A stretch of 64,000 nt of DNA from Pseudotabrizicola formosa (GTDB lineage Bacteria; Pseudomonadota; Alphaproteobacteria; Rhodobacterales; Rhodobacteraceae). Both the position numbers and the translations under genes were made by a program. Below the pieces are notes generated by a model, which saw only the letters and a program-made list of their open reading frames with translations, did not search any database and was not told the origin of the DNA. Every line of letters begins with the position of its first letter. The stretch's first letter is position 1. The DNA lies in contig NZ_PJOM01000002.1 of NCBI RefSeq assembly GCF_002900965.1, positions 1,116,001 through 1,180,000 on the forward strand, written 5' to 3'. Positions 14,029 through 27,728 of this stretch are shown here, piece by piece.

Positions 14029-14388
14029 TCAGGCGGCGGGCGCATCCTTGAACTTGATCGACTCGCCGCAGCCGCAGGCTTCGGCCACATTGGGATTGCG
14101 GAACTTGAACCCTGCGTGCAGCAGGTCGATATCATAATCGATCTCGGTGCCGATCAGGAACATCTGCGCCATGGGCGCAATCATCACCCGGGCCCCGTCC
14201 TGTTCGACAATTTCATCCAGCGGGTTCACCTCGGACACGTAATCCATGGTGTATTCCATTCCCGCGCAGCCGCCCTTCTTGACGCCGATGCGCAGGCCCT
14301 GACGGCCATCCTTTTCCATCAGCCGGGCAATCTGCTTTGCGGCAATCGGGGTCAGGGTGACGGCGGCTTTGCCGGGGATGCCAAACAT
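14029..14388 (-). CDS. A-type iron-sulfur carrier (IscA/SufA/ErpA family)
   Basis: A 119-residue HesB/IscA protein that holds and delivers Fe-S clusters to apoproteins. The three family cysteines are present: C41 in KKGGCAGMEY, and C105 and C107 in ACGCGES. The start at 14388 has AGGAG seven bases upstream; a longer reading frame to 14442 is not needed. It is the last gene of a same-strand series: DUF59 Fe-S protein, SatD-like, DUF3307, then this carrier, 28 bases after DUF3307. Which of the SufA/IscA/ErpA subtypes it is cannot be decided by eye, so no symbol is given. Confidence 0.92.
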   Translation of the reverse strand: MFGIPGKAAVTLTPIAAKQIARLMEKDGRQGLRIGVKKGGCAGMEYTMDYVSEVNPLDEIVEQDGARVMIAPMAQMFLIGTEIDYDIDLLHAGFKFRNPNVAEACGCGESIKFKDAPAA

Positions 14389-14416
14389 GGGGGTACTCCT
14401 GCTCTCTCGCTTCAAT

Positions 14417-15160
14417 CTAAGGCGAAAGGTCGGGAATTCCAAGCGCTGGCAGCGATGATAGCACCATCACCGTGCCAATCGCCATCAACATGGCCCAGCC
14501 GAACGACGCCAGCGTGCCGATGATGACATATTCCGACAGCCGCGCCTCCTCCTTCACCGCGCCAAAGCGCAGCACGGATTTGGCGGCGATCAGGAATCCG
14601 ATGCCGCCGGGTTCACCCGCAAGGATCAGCACAAAGATGATCCCGCGCTCCAGCATGCCGATGATCCGGCCGCCCCCGGGCAGGCCGTCCAGGCCCACCT
14701 CGCTCCAGGGCCGCATCAACAGGCCAAGCGCAAAGCCACCCGCCCGCGTGGCCAGCACCGCACCGGCAATGACGGTGGCGGCAGCGGGCAGCCAGAGCGG
14801 CGCATGCGCGGCCCAGGCCCCCTGCATCCAAAGGCCGGGCCAGAGCCCCGCCATCAGCAGCAAGGTGGCAAAATGGGCGGTCTGATCGGCCAGAAAGGCG
14901 GCAATTCCTGACAGGTGCCTGCCCAGCAACACCTTTGCCACGTCGATCGCCAGGTGCGCCGCACTCAGGATCGCCACCCCCATCAGCGCCTGCGGCGTCT
15001 GCACCCCCAGCACCAGCAACGTGACCACGCCCACCACCCCGATATGCGCGGCCATCCAACCAATGTGCCCCCCGGCCTTGGCCTGCGCCATGCGGTCCGG
15101 TTGCAGCACGAAATCGGCCAGGACATGCGCCACAATCAGCAGGGCCAGGGTTTCAGCCAT
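14417..15160 (-). CDS. DUF3307 multi-pass membrane protein
   Basis: A 247-residue integral membrane protein. The N-terminal motif AHVLADFVLQPDRMA followed by HIGWMAAHIGV is characteristic of DUF3307, and about six hydrophobic segments continue to the C-terminus (ALGIPDLSP). The start at 15160 has AAGGGGA seven bases upstream and lies inside the end of the upstream SatD-like gene (8-base overlap), so the two are translationally coupled. DUF3307 genes recur beside SatD genes in other bacteria, so this is a conserved two-gene unit of unknown function, probably a membrane effector regulated by its partner. Confidence 0.8.
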   Translation of the reverse strand: MAETLALLIVAHVLADFVLQPDRMAQAKAGGHIGWMAAHIGVVGVVTLLVLGVQTPQALMGVAILSAAHLAIDVAKVLLGRHLSGIAAFLADQTAHFATLLLMAGLWPGLWMQGAWAAHAPLWLPAAATVIAGAVLATRAGGFALGLLMRPWSEVGLDGLPGGGRIIGMLERGIIFVLILAGEPGGIGFLIAAKSVLRFGAVKEEARLSEYVIIGTLASFGWAMLMAIGTVMVLSSLPALGIPDLSP

Positions 15161-15785
15161 CGGTGTCCCCTTGCGCGAACTGCGTGGCAAAGGCCCGGAT
15201 CGCGCGCCGCGTCAGATCAAATCCGGCCGCCGACAGCCGCGCCCCAAAGGCCTGCCGCGAAATTCCCAGCCGCTCGGCCAGCACCTGCTGGCTCTGCTGC
15301 CCATCCGGGTCCAGCGACAGGGCGACCGCTTCGGCCTGTTCCGGCGACCAGCCCTGCACCTGCGCATCAAGATAGGCCATCAGCGCCTGATGCAGCGGGT
15401 CAGTCCCTGCCCCCGCCAGCGCCAGCCACTGGCCCGTGCTCATCGCGTCCAGCGCCCGGCCCGAGGCCACAAAGGCCATGCCGCCCGCAGTGCCAAGATT
15501 ACCCTTGTCAAAACCGGTGGCATCGCCGATCCCCAGGGCCATCCGGCTGGATAAAAGATCCATGGCGCGCAACTGTGCGGCCAGAAACACCATGACCTCC
15601 AGGCCCTGCGCCGCCGCGCCGACATAGGCCTGCCAGCCGTCACCCCGGTAACGATGAAAACGGGCCGTGCTGCCCAGCCGGTCAATAGCCTCTTCGATCA
15701 CCATCATCGTGTCATCAACCTGCGCCGCCGTGCTGCGGGTCGACAGGATCAGATCGCCGGTAAGGACTGCGTGCCGCTGGATCAT
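15153..15785 (-). CDS. SatD-family protein with C-terminal helix-turn-helix
   Basis: A 210-residue soluble protein. Residues 6-120 resemble the SatD family: AVLTGDLILS (D11), a central RYRGDGWQAY (GDG at 48-50) and GTAGGMAFVASGRAL, a pattern reminiscent of a nucleotide-cyclase-like palm fold. Residues 163-187 (QQSQQVLAERLGISRQAFGA) form a helix-turn-helix, so it may be a DNA-binding regulator. The ATG at 15785 abuts the first unit of a palindrome array at 15786-15951; a TTG at 15800 would fall inside that unit. No Shine-Dalgarno sequence is visible. It overlaps DUF3307 downstream by eight bases. Autoregulation is inferred, not shown. Confidence 0.7.
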   Translation of the reverse strand: MIQRHAVLTGDLILSTRSTAAQVDDTMMVIEEAIDRLGSTARFHRYRGDGWQAYVGAAAQGLEVMVFLAAQLRAMDLLSSRMALGIGDATGFDKGNLGTAGGMAFVASGRALDAMSTGQWLALAGAGTDPLHQALMAYLDAQVQGWSPEQAEAVALSLDPDGQQSQQVLAERLGISRQAFGARLSAAGFDLTRRAIRAFATQFAQGDTDG

Positions 15786-15951
15786 ACGCAAGCCATACAA
15801 CTTGCATGTCGAAAATGCAATTCATTTGGCCTGCACTTCAATCAAGAAAGCCAAATGGCTTTCGATCTCGAGAAGCAACCCCAAAACCATGCGGGGAATG
15901 CGCAAGCCGAAAGGGTTTCAAATGAAAAATGCAAGCCATTTGGCTTGCATT
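15786..15951. promoter_or_regulatory. Array of six palindromic operator-like units, period 27-29 bp
   Basis: Each 22-bp unit follows the pattern of left arm GCAAGCC, a four-base centre, and right arm GGCTTGC. The best unit, 15929-15950, is perfect (ATGCAAGCCA, TT, TGGCTTGCAT). Others are 15786-15807, 15815-15836, 15844-15865 (GAAAGCCA, AA, TGGCTTTC), 15873-15894 (weak, 11 of 22 bases match) and 15900-15921. Successive centres are 29, 29, 29, 27 and 29 bases apart. The array fills the gap between the DUF59 gene stop (15975) and the satD-like start (15785), and reads as a multi-site operator for a dimeric regulator. Confidence 0.75.
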
Positions 15952-15974
15952 ACATTCGATACCCTGATGGATCT

Positions 15975-16334
15975 TTACATGAAGCCCAGTTCCAGACGGG
16001 CCTCATCGCTCATCATCTCCATCCCCCAGGGCGGATCGAAGGTCATCTGCACATCGACCTGCTTGACCCCCGCCAAAGGCTCCACCGCATCGGCAACCCA
16101 GCCCGGCATCTCTCCGGCGACGGGGCAGCCGGGGGCTGTCAGGGTCATGATGATGCCGACCGCGTTTTCCGCGTCGATCTCGATGGTGTAGATCAGGCCC
16201 AGATCAAAGATGTTCACCGGGATTTCGGGGTCAAACACCGTCCGGCAGGCCTCGACCACCAAGTCATACAGAGGATGATCGGTGCTTGATGGCTTGATGA
16301 GCGGGGTGCCCTCGATCTTTGCTTCGCTGTTCAT
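15975..16334 (-). CDS. DUF59/MIP18-type Fe-S assembly protein (SufT-like)
   Basis: A 119-residue single-domain DUF59 protein implicated in maturation of Fe-S proteins, usually linked to the SUF system. The core EACRTVFDPEIPVNIFDLGL, the TLTAPGCPVAGEMP motif with the conserved cysteine C70, and TFDPPWGMEMM identify the family. The short N-terminal extension (MNSEAKIEGTPLIKPSS) is common in Rhodobacteraceae SUF-associated copies. The start at 16334 has TGAGG upstream. It lies upstream of the A-type carrier gene on the same strand, but the two Fe-S genes are separated by the SatD-DUF3307 pair and its palindrome array. Confidence 0.9.
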   Translation of the reverse strand: MNSEAKIEGTPLIKPSSTDHPLYDLVVEACRTVFDPEIPVNIFDLGLIYTIEIDAENAVGIIMTLTAPGCPVAGEMPGWVADAVEPLAGVKQVDVQMTFDPPWGMEMMSDEARLELGFM

Positions 16335-27065: not shown

Positions 27066-27728
27066 TCAGAGGCCGAGGGCCGATTTGACCTGCGTGATCA
27101 CGCCGTCCAGCAGCGCCGGATTGGAGGCGGCGGCATCCACGGCCGAGGTCAGCGTGGTCTTGGTCGCGCCATCCAGCGACGAGCTGGCGATCAGGGCCTT
27201 GACCGCATCGGCATCAAAGTTTTCCGGATCAAGGGCAGCAGCCCCGGCGGTAGAGGCGCTGGTCGCGGCCTCTTCTGCGGCATCGGCTGCGGATTCGGCG
27301 GCCACATTGGCGGCATTTGCCGCATCGGTCGCCGTGTCGGTGGCAGCCTCACCCGCATCTTCGACCGCTTCGGCAGCGGCAGCGGCAGCGCCCTGGGCCG
27401 CTTCTGCGGCGGCAGCAGCGGCGGCTTCGGCAGCGGCGGCGGCCGCTTCAACCGCGTCCGTCACGGCGCTTTCGGCCTCTGCCGCAGCGGCGGCAGCTTC
27501 AGCCTCGGCGGCGGCGGTGGCAGCAGCGGCCTCTTCGGCGGCCGCAGCAGCGGCAGCTTCGGCTTCGGCGGCGGCGGCAGCCGCAGCCTCTTCGGCCGCC
27601 TGCGCTTCGGCGGCAGCAGCGGCAGCGGCCTGTTCAGCCGCCTGTTGTGCCGGCACATAGCTGAACTGGTAATATCCGCCCGCGGCCAGCAGAATGACAA
27701 CGGCACCAATGATTACAGTCTTGTTCAT
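27066..27728 (-). CDS. Membrane-anchored alanine/glutamate-rich stalk protein
   Basis: A 220-residue protein of three parts. Residues 1-24 form an uncleaved-looking hydrophobic anchor ([20 protein letters not shown]). Residues about 28-165 are almost pure Ala/Glu repeats (units like [11 protein letters not shown]), predicted to be one long helix or coiled coil. Residues 165-220 form a small compact C-terminal domain ([32 protein letters not shown]). The likely location is the inner membrane with the stalk in the periplasm. The start at 27728 has GGAG eight bases upstream. I do not recognise a family; a similar low-complexity region occurs in the OmpA-type protein at 30708-32906. Confidence 0.75.

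Follow-up and report, generated by a model that had tools for sequence, protein, structure and literature searches.

An array of palindromes conserved upstream of satD in Rhodobacteraceae is a probable operator of SatD

We describe an array of palindromes upstream of a satD-like gene in the window, a stretch of 64,000 nucleotides from the genome of Pseudotabrizicola formosa (contig NZ_PJOM01000002.1, family Rhodobacteraceae). Six dyads of about 22 base pairs (bp) lie at 15786-15950, with lattice steps of 29, 29, 29, 27 and 29 bp, before a gene for a SatD-like protein which is followed by a gene for a DUF3307 membrane protein. Comparison across genomes reveals that the array is conserved, that it depends on satD, that its half-site letters covary with the predicted helix-turn-helix (HTH) of SatD, and that it overlaps promoter-like elements. 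Based on these findings, we consider it highly probable that the array serves SatD as a multi-site operator, from which SatD would repress satD-DUF3307 until a signal releases it. SatD would accordingly be a dedicated autoregulator, probably a repressor.

In the mechanism that we propose, dimers of SatD would recognise dyads of about 18 bp, here GCAAGCC-n4-GGCTTGC, placed every 29 bp. The two units nearest to satD appear to be built into the promoter, with one half-site giving the TTGC of the -35 element and the centre of the other unit giving the -10 element. The transcript is probably leaderless, its first base being that of the start codon. SatD bound to the array would cover both elements and block RNA polymerase, since the satD-nearest units overlap the promoter-like elements, and both satD and the DUF3307 gene would be repressed. 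Release would come from a signal; a nucleotide that binds to the cyclase-like domain of SatD is a plausible one.

The array in the window and across the family

All six units were read on the minus strand. Unit 1 (15786..15807) abuts the satD start codon, as a preliminary description of this DNA had claimed, and is followed by unit 2 (15815..15836), unit 3 (15844..15865) and the degenerate unit 4 (15873..15894), in which 3 of 11 pairs are self-complementary. Unit 5 (15900..15921) stands at the 27-bp step from unit 4, a step found identically in locus L006, and unit 6 (15929..15950) is the best of the series. Against this best unit, units 1 to 6 match at 17, 18, 15, 11, 13 and 22 of 22 positions. 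The units, steps and match counts given in the preliminary description were reproduced exactly. Its characterisation of unit 6 as perfect applies to both arms; one central pair is unpaired, and 10 of 11 positions pair. A whole-genome search found the exact dyad at this single place. Four sites with one mismatch were also found, and the three of them that were read correspond to stop-free frames of 418-532 codons, with no array (largest z-score 3.2).

Controls within the window gave a divided answer as to how often such arrays arise by chance, the question that the preliminary description had posed. The observed value for palindrome chains of four, five or six units was reached in none of 2000 dinucleotide shuffles. 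For chains of three, two and one units it was reached in 42, 16 and 11 of the 2000 shuffles. Speaking against the array, 5 of 1276 sliding segments of the window scored at least as high as the array for six units (13 for five units, 18 for four). One of these five segments is the array itself, and the other four are overlapping pieces near 27.3-27.7 kb. The stretch at 27300-27720 is GC-rich and of low complexity, with a palindrome-chain score above that of the array, to which it is unrelated. Because this stretch scores higher by the same palindrome measure, the score within the window is not decisive.

Conservation was assessed in 88 satD loci, of which seven belong to the genus and the other 81 lie elsewhere in the family. 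The larger family sample covered 394 genomes, in which 84 strong matches were counted among those listed, two partial; genome G358 was left out of the loci because its match is partial. We scanned the 170 bases before each start codon for chains of dyads 27-31 bp apart, using 40 shuffles of the same DNA as the control, took the best of two, three or four units per locus, and called an array at a z-score of at least 4. For loci L057, L047 and L100, the register was set with a matrix that covered the whole family and was derived from DNA alone. An array was present at 73 of the 88 loci, compared with 9 of 352 control windows placed elsewhere in the same loci and scored in the same way. At a z-score of at least 6, these numbers were 63 of 88 and 2 of 352. 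Thus the absence of conservation upstream of orthologous satD-DUF3307 pairs, which had been set beforehand as grounds for refutation, was not what we found. It is conservation and not the score within the window that decides the matter, and the array is real. Among 136 steps, 95 were of 29 bp, 20 of 30, 17 of 28 and four of 27. After extension the arrays held two to six units. There were just two units in 26 of the 73, and six were reached only in the genome of the window and in L006, its closest relative.

The array also follows the presence of satD. Our set of genus and family genomes lacking a SatD match comprised 24 genomes, 23 of which have the sufT-like gene that lies upstream of the array in the window. 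No array was detected in the 176 bases after sufT in any of these 23 (largest z-score 2.9). Conversely, of the eight satD loci whose fetched flank (1-1.5 kb) showed no sufT, seven keep an array at a z-score of at least 4, and the eighth scores 3.9. By these comparisons, the array belongs to satD. They also bear on whether the array could be a feature of RNA, a stack of hairpins terminating or attenuating transcription out of the sufT-like gene. The sufT-proximal unit does form a terminator-like hairpin (15918-15951, -17.4 kcal/mol) followed by a T run, and across loci such T runs stand after 24 of 66 first units and 18 of 126 later units (p 8e-4). Yet the array is missing after sufT where satD is missing and persists with satD where sufT was not found, and covariation with a DNA-binding helix would be unexpected for a terminator. 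We therefore regard a pure RNA function as quite improbable, and one unit may well do both jobs, operator and terminator.

That the array is a product of chance or a mobile repeat (an iteron, a repetitive extragenic palindrome-like or a centromere-like array) is scarcely credible, and the conservation data already disfavour it. Such an origin would suit the tandem spacing, and palindrome chains alone favour the low-complexity stretch over the array; it would sit poorly with an exact dyad found at one place in the genome, with arrays tied to satD, and with letters that drift together with SatD.

Covariation between half-sites and SatD

The satD-like gene (15153..15785, minus strand) encodes 210 amino acids, with a class III cyclase-like N-terminal part and a C-terminal HTH. 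The codons of HTH residues 161-192 occupy 15210..15305, with helices assigned after HTH models, and those of R177, Q178 and A182 lie at 15255-15257, 15252-15254 and 15240-15242, all on the minus strand. We compared the letters of the half-sites, counted outward from the dyad axis, with 197 usable SatD columns in 72 loci that have an array and a complete HTH. Locus L019 was left out because a contig end cuts its HTH.

Position 9 was G in 60 loci, T in 11 and A in one. Residue 177, which by alignment falls in the putative recognition helix, was R in every locus with G, P, T, A or K in every locus with T, and Q in the locus with A, so that all 72 agreed without exception. This residue ranked first among the 197 columns by mutual information (0.68 of 0.75 bits; next column 0.41). 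For position 5, residue 182 ranked first narrowly (0.49 of 1.01; next 0.45), and K182 occurred with C5 in 11 of 11 cases, with one further C5 locus having A182. The pairing of E178 with G8 was seen first in L097; L144, a congener fetched afterwards, showed it too. On a FastTree phylogeny of the SatD N-terminal part alone, with changes placed by simple parsimony, position 9 and the class of residue 177 each changed five times, and all five changes fell on identical branches of 142. That half-site letters drift in step with the HTH of SatD suggests that SatD occupies these sites and switches its own operon. The preliminary description had interpreted the array as an operator with several sites for a dimeric regulator, which might be SatD; conservation in 73 of 88 orthologues as opposed to 0 of 23 satD-lacking genomes, together with covariation at positions 9 and 5 with the HTH, argues in favour of that proposal.

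Loss of the array follows the code as well. Among family loci, a clear array is missing in 8 of 9 Q177 proteins, compared with 5 of 65 R177 proteins. The eight Q177 proteins without a recognisable array (L046, L049, L056, L069, L075, L090, L095 and L098) may use another site or may have lost self-control. The single Q177-A9 case of the family is in genome G244, and it was not replicated among the congeners, because the two that were searched have no SatD match.

We extended the comparison beyond the family to 13 SatD loci elsewhere in the phylum, of which three are on plasmids, scanning two regions per locus; the five short partial matches L175-L179 stand outside this sample. Arrays at 28-29 bp with a z-score of at least 4 were found in nine of the 13, those without being L148, L165, L171 and L174. 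Locus L148 displayed a plain ACAACC dyad (2.9; 0 of 100 shuffles). A relative of DUF3307 lay downstream in all 13, in some over its C-terminal part only. In four loci (L164, L167, L168 and L169) the array lies between satD and the DUF3307 gene, and therefore points to DUF3307 as the controlled gene. K182 went with C5 in seven of eight cases, with one tie. Position 9 fitted as P-T in L146, T-T in L166 and Q-A in L168 and L169, and a new letter, V177 in L147, goes with T9.

Several results weigh against SatD as the reader of the array, or against the reach of the putative code. No clear array was detected in 15 of the 88 family loci. The rule for position 9 rests on only five changes, C5 changes four times on the tree and K182 three times, and position 8 changes eight times and residue 178 only three. 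The rule linking position 8 to residue 178 is weak, because residue 178 shares first place with columns 93 and 135 and Q178 is kept in five of the seven A8 loci. For positions 4 and 3, the strongest covariation is with columns that lie beyond the HTH. Beyond the family, R177 faces T and not G in both cases (L164 and L170), whence the position-9 rule depends on context, and L167 (K177) and L172 are ambiguous at position 9. Pfam matches to the HTH are weak, with the window's SatD below the cut-off of every HTH model, and a scan for the sigma-70 consensus calls no promoter at the array. From these alignments, the apparent recognition code holds strongly within the family and only in part beyond it.

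These results leave some room for a different host regulator binding the array, with SatD merely sharing the array's history. Such a regulator would fit the covariation of positions 4 and 3, and the tests that link SatD to the array are sequence comparisons. The evidence speaks more for SatD itself, since positions 9 and 5 covary most, among 197 columns, with residues of its own HTH, and since there is no sign of a wider regulon in the 10 genus genomes searched. The pattern search in those genomes returned 10 scattered sites outside satD loci, two in the satD-lacking G003 and none in G007 or G012. Each of the five sites that were read lies in a stop-free frame of 415-617 codons, with no array around it, and it is from these that we see no sign of a wider regulon. 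We judge a different regulator to be very improbable, slightly more so than the RNA function considered above.

Gene order, promoter-like elements and the sign of regulation

On the minus strand of the window (14029-16334), the order of genes is the sufT-like gene, the array, the satD-like gene, the DUF3307 gene and an IscA-like gene. The sufT-like gene (15975..16334; TIGR02945 SUF_assoc) is the upstream neighbour of the array and stands outside the system. The DUF3307 membrane-protein gene (14417..15160; PF11750) overlaps the end of satD, and the pair lies between the sufT-like gene and a gene at 14029..14388 that, judging from its sequence, we take to be IscA/HesB-like. Pseudotabrizicola sediminis was the single relative returned from named genomes, with 85% identity. 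In satD-lacking genomes, the IscA-like gene follows sufT within 400 bp and on the same strand in 16 of 23 cases, and it lies downstream of satD in 32 of the 33 satD loci with enough sequence. Because the sufT-like and IscA-like genes adjoin in the former and flank the satD pair in the latter, satD-DUF3307 looks like a cassette that is present or absent between them.

DUF3307 lies downstream of satD in 85 of the 88 family loci. Two of the other three, L012 and L019, end at contig ends, and L107 gave no match. Locus L107 carries a decayed SatD in which both GD aspartates are lost, and it has neither a DUF3307 match nor an array. On a plasmid of Sphingomonas insulae (L164), satD-DUF3307 adjoins a gene annotated as Pycsar system effector family protein. 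A tblastn search of plasmids gave three matches to the window's SatD and none to the SatD of L148. With the L148 protein, the only query used against phages (the window's SatD was not searched there), tblastn gave no match. A search in the family of genome G921 gave nothing beyond the locus already known.

The satD-proximal end of the array has the composition of a promoter. The centre of unit 1 holds a candidate -10 hexamer, TATGGC (15792..15797, minus strand), and a half-site of unit 2 forms a candidate -35 element, TTGCAT (15815..15820, minus strand), 17 bp away. In 51 of the 73 array loci, 8-13 bp separate the start codon from the last dyad of the best chain; the window is not among the 51, its own best-scoring chain having stopped short of unit 1. 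At the dyad step, TA was present in 43 of 51 satD-proximal units compared with 29 of 102 inner units (Fisher p 4e-11), and positions -24 to -22 from the last dyad are T in 45, T in 40 and G in 31 of the 51. To judge from this composition, the last unit would contribute its centre and the unit next to it a half-site, which together would make a -35/-10-like pair with 17-bp spacing. The start codon falls at the transcription start expected for that pair.

The same layout bears on the sign of regulation. SatD could be an activator, its dimers recruiting RNA polymerase from the upstream units of its operator. This would accord with the absence of a consensus promoter in the sigma-70 scan and with the layout in the window, where two of the six units overlap the promoter-like elements and the other four lie upstream of them. 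However, in 51 of the 73 array loci the last unit, near the start codon, covers the -10-like place and the next half-site overlaps the -35, and 26 of the 73 have just two units after extension. Activation is thus the strongest of the alternatives and still unlikely, and we favour repression by SatD.

SatD, DUF3307 and related systems

The protein families involved are consistent with a signal-responsive regulator. A profile of 37 SatD rows matched structures of the cyclase Ma1120 in the PDB over residues 4-95 (E-value 0.003). Aligned by hhalign to seven class III cyclases, three of which were checked as PF00211, it gave a probability of 95% and an E-value of 3.3e-8 over 120 columns, a flattering value because the SatD profile itself had selected those cyclases. 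By these profile matches, the N-terminal part of SatD resembles the catalytic domain of class III cyclases at the level of fold. The GD aspartates D11 and D49, which we take to be the metal-binding aspartates of class III cyclases, occur in 100 of the 101 proteins aligned, a set without L168; the exception is L107. Position 110, presumably the candidate for the transition-state Asn/Arg of these enzymes, is R in 65 of 101 in a region where the alignment is uncertain. Sigma70_r4 models matched the HTH in 10 of the 37 relatives at an E-value of at most 0.1 (best 9e-6). An AlphaFold model of SatD from a two-sequence alignment had a mean confidence (pLDDT) of 39 and was not used for fold searches. 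DUF3307 displayed several hydrophobic, membrane-like segments. In PHROGs, the window's DUF3307 matched phrog_2470, a phage protein family filed under moron genes, and the L148 SatD matched HTH families; nothing was found there for the window's SatD. Searched with PADLOC, the SatD and DUF3307 proteins of the window and those of L164 gave no match.

The name SatD stands for secretion and acid tolerance D (PMC11323703). In the available excerpt of that paper, satD is a single essential accessory gene of Streptococcus pyogenes: 178 of 249 genomes carry it, and those strains that were tested cannot do without it. As a lead only, such an accessory-yet-essential pattern would suit a repressor of a harmful partner, and it would be a hint of kinship with toxin-antitoxin-like modules, in which the repressor guards the cell against the other product of its operon. 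Two further papers, in the parts available, merely name the families (PMC10326533 and PMC8504454). Among the literature matches listed on SatD regulators, DUF3307 and cyclase-HTH fusions, no title or start of an abstract described SatD as a regulator that binds DNA, or its operator, and none gave a mechanism for SatD or DUF3307.

We tentatively postulate, as a conjecture that we hold to be possible and less than probable, that satD-DUF3307 is a portable sensor-effector module of Alpha- and Gammaproteobacteria. In such a module the cyclase-fold SatD would read a nucleotide, and the fast-evolving array would insulate each copy from related ones and keep a membrane protein that is harmful to the cell or to an invader silent. 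If true, this would account for several observations: satD can be accessory and still essential, the two genes insert between others and also turn up on plasmids, and the phage protein family that DUF3307 matches is classed among moron genes. The array itself would give SatD a concrete and testable job, that of a dedicated self-regulator, and it points to a signal of nucleotide type. The pairings R177-G9, P/T/A/K177-T9, Q177-A9 and K182-C5 would represent a natural amino-acid-to-base code replicated over the family, which is open to ordinary binding assays.

Placing this system among known ones begins with its own family. PF16264, the SatD family of Pfam, does not match the window's SatD, nor does the model match anything in the window's genome, and it matches two of the 37 SatD relatives at an E-value of at most 0.1 (best 0.004). 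Intermediates supply the link: G921 matches PF16264 at 1.2e-10 and our SatD alignment at 3.5e-11 (residues 51-199), and G754 matches them at 2.6e-4, below the cut-off, and 4.6e-37. The pairing with DUF3307 is shared with distant members as well. With class III cyclases (Guanylate_cyc PF00211; Ma1120) SatD shares profile similarity and the two GD aspartates; unlike them, it is fused to an HTH, and arginine stands at position 110 in only 65 of 101 proteins. With autoregulatory HTH factors that use operator arrays it shares the HTH domain and conserved dyads before its own gene. Further parallels are regulator families such as IclR (PMC8222616) and LacI (PMC4052901), whose DNA motifs coevolve with the protein; there, as for the SatD array, comparative genomics links motif and regulator. 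The array is set apart by having up to six units, on a fixed lattice that appears locked to the promoter, with no wider regulon seen. IclR and LacI regulators, moreover, carry a sensor domain other than that of SatD.
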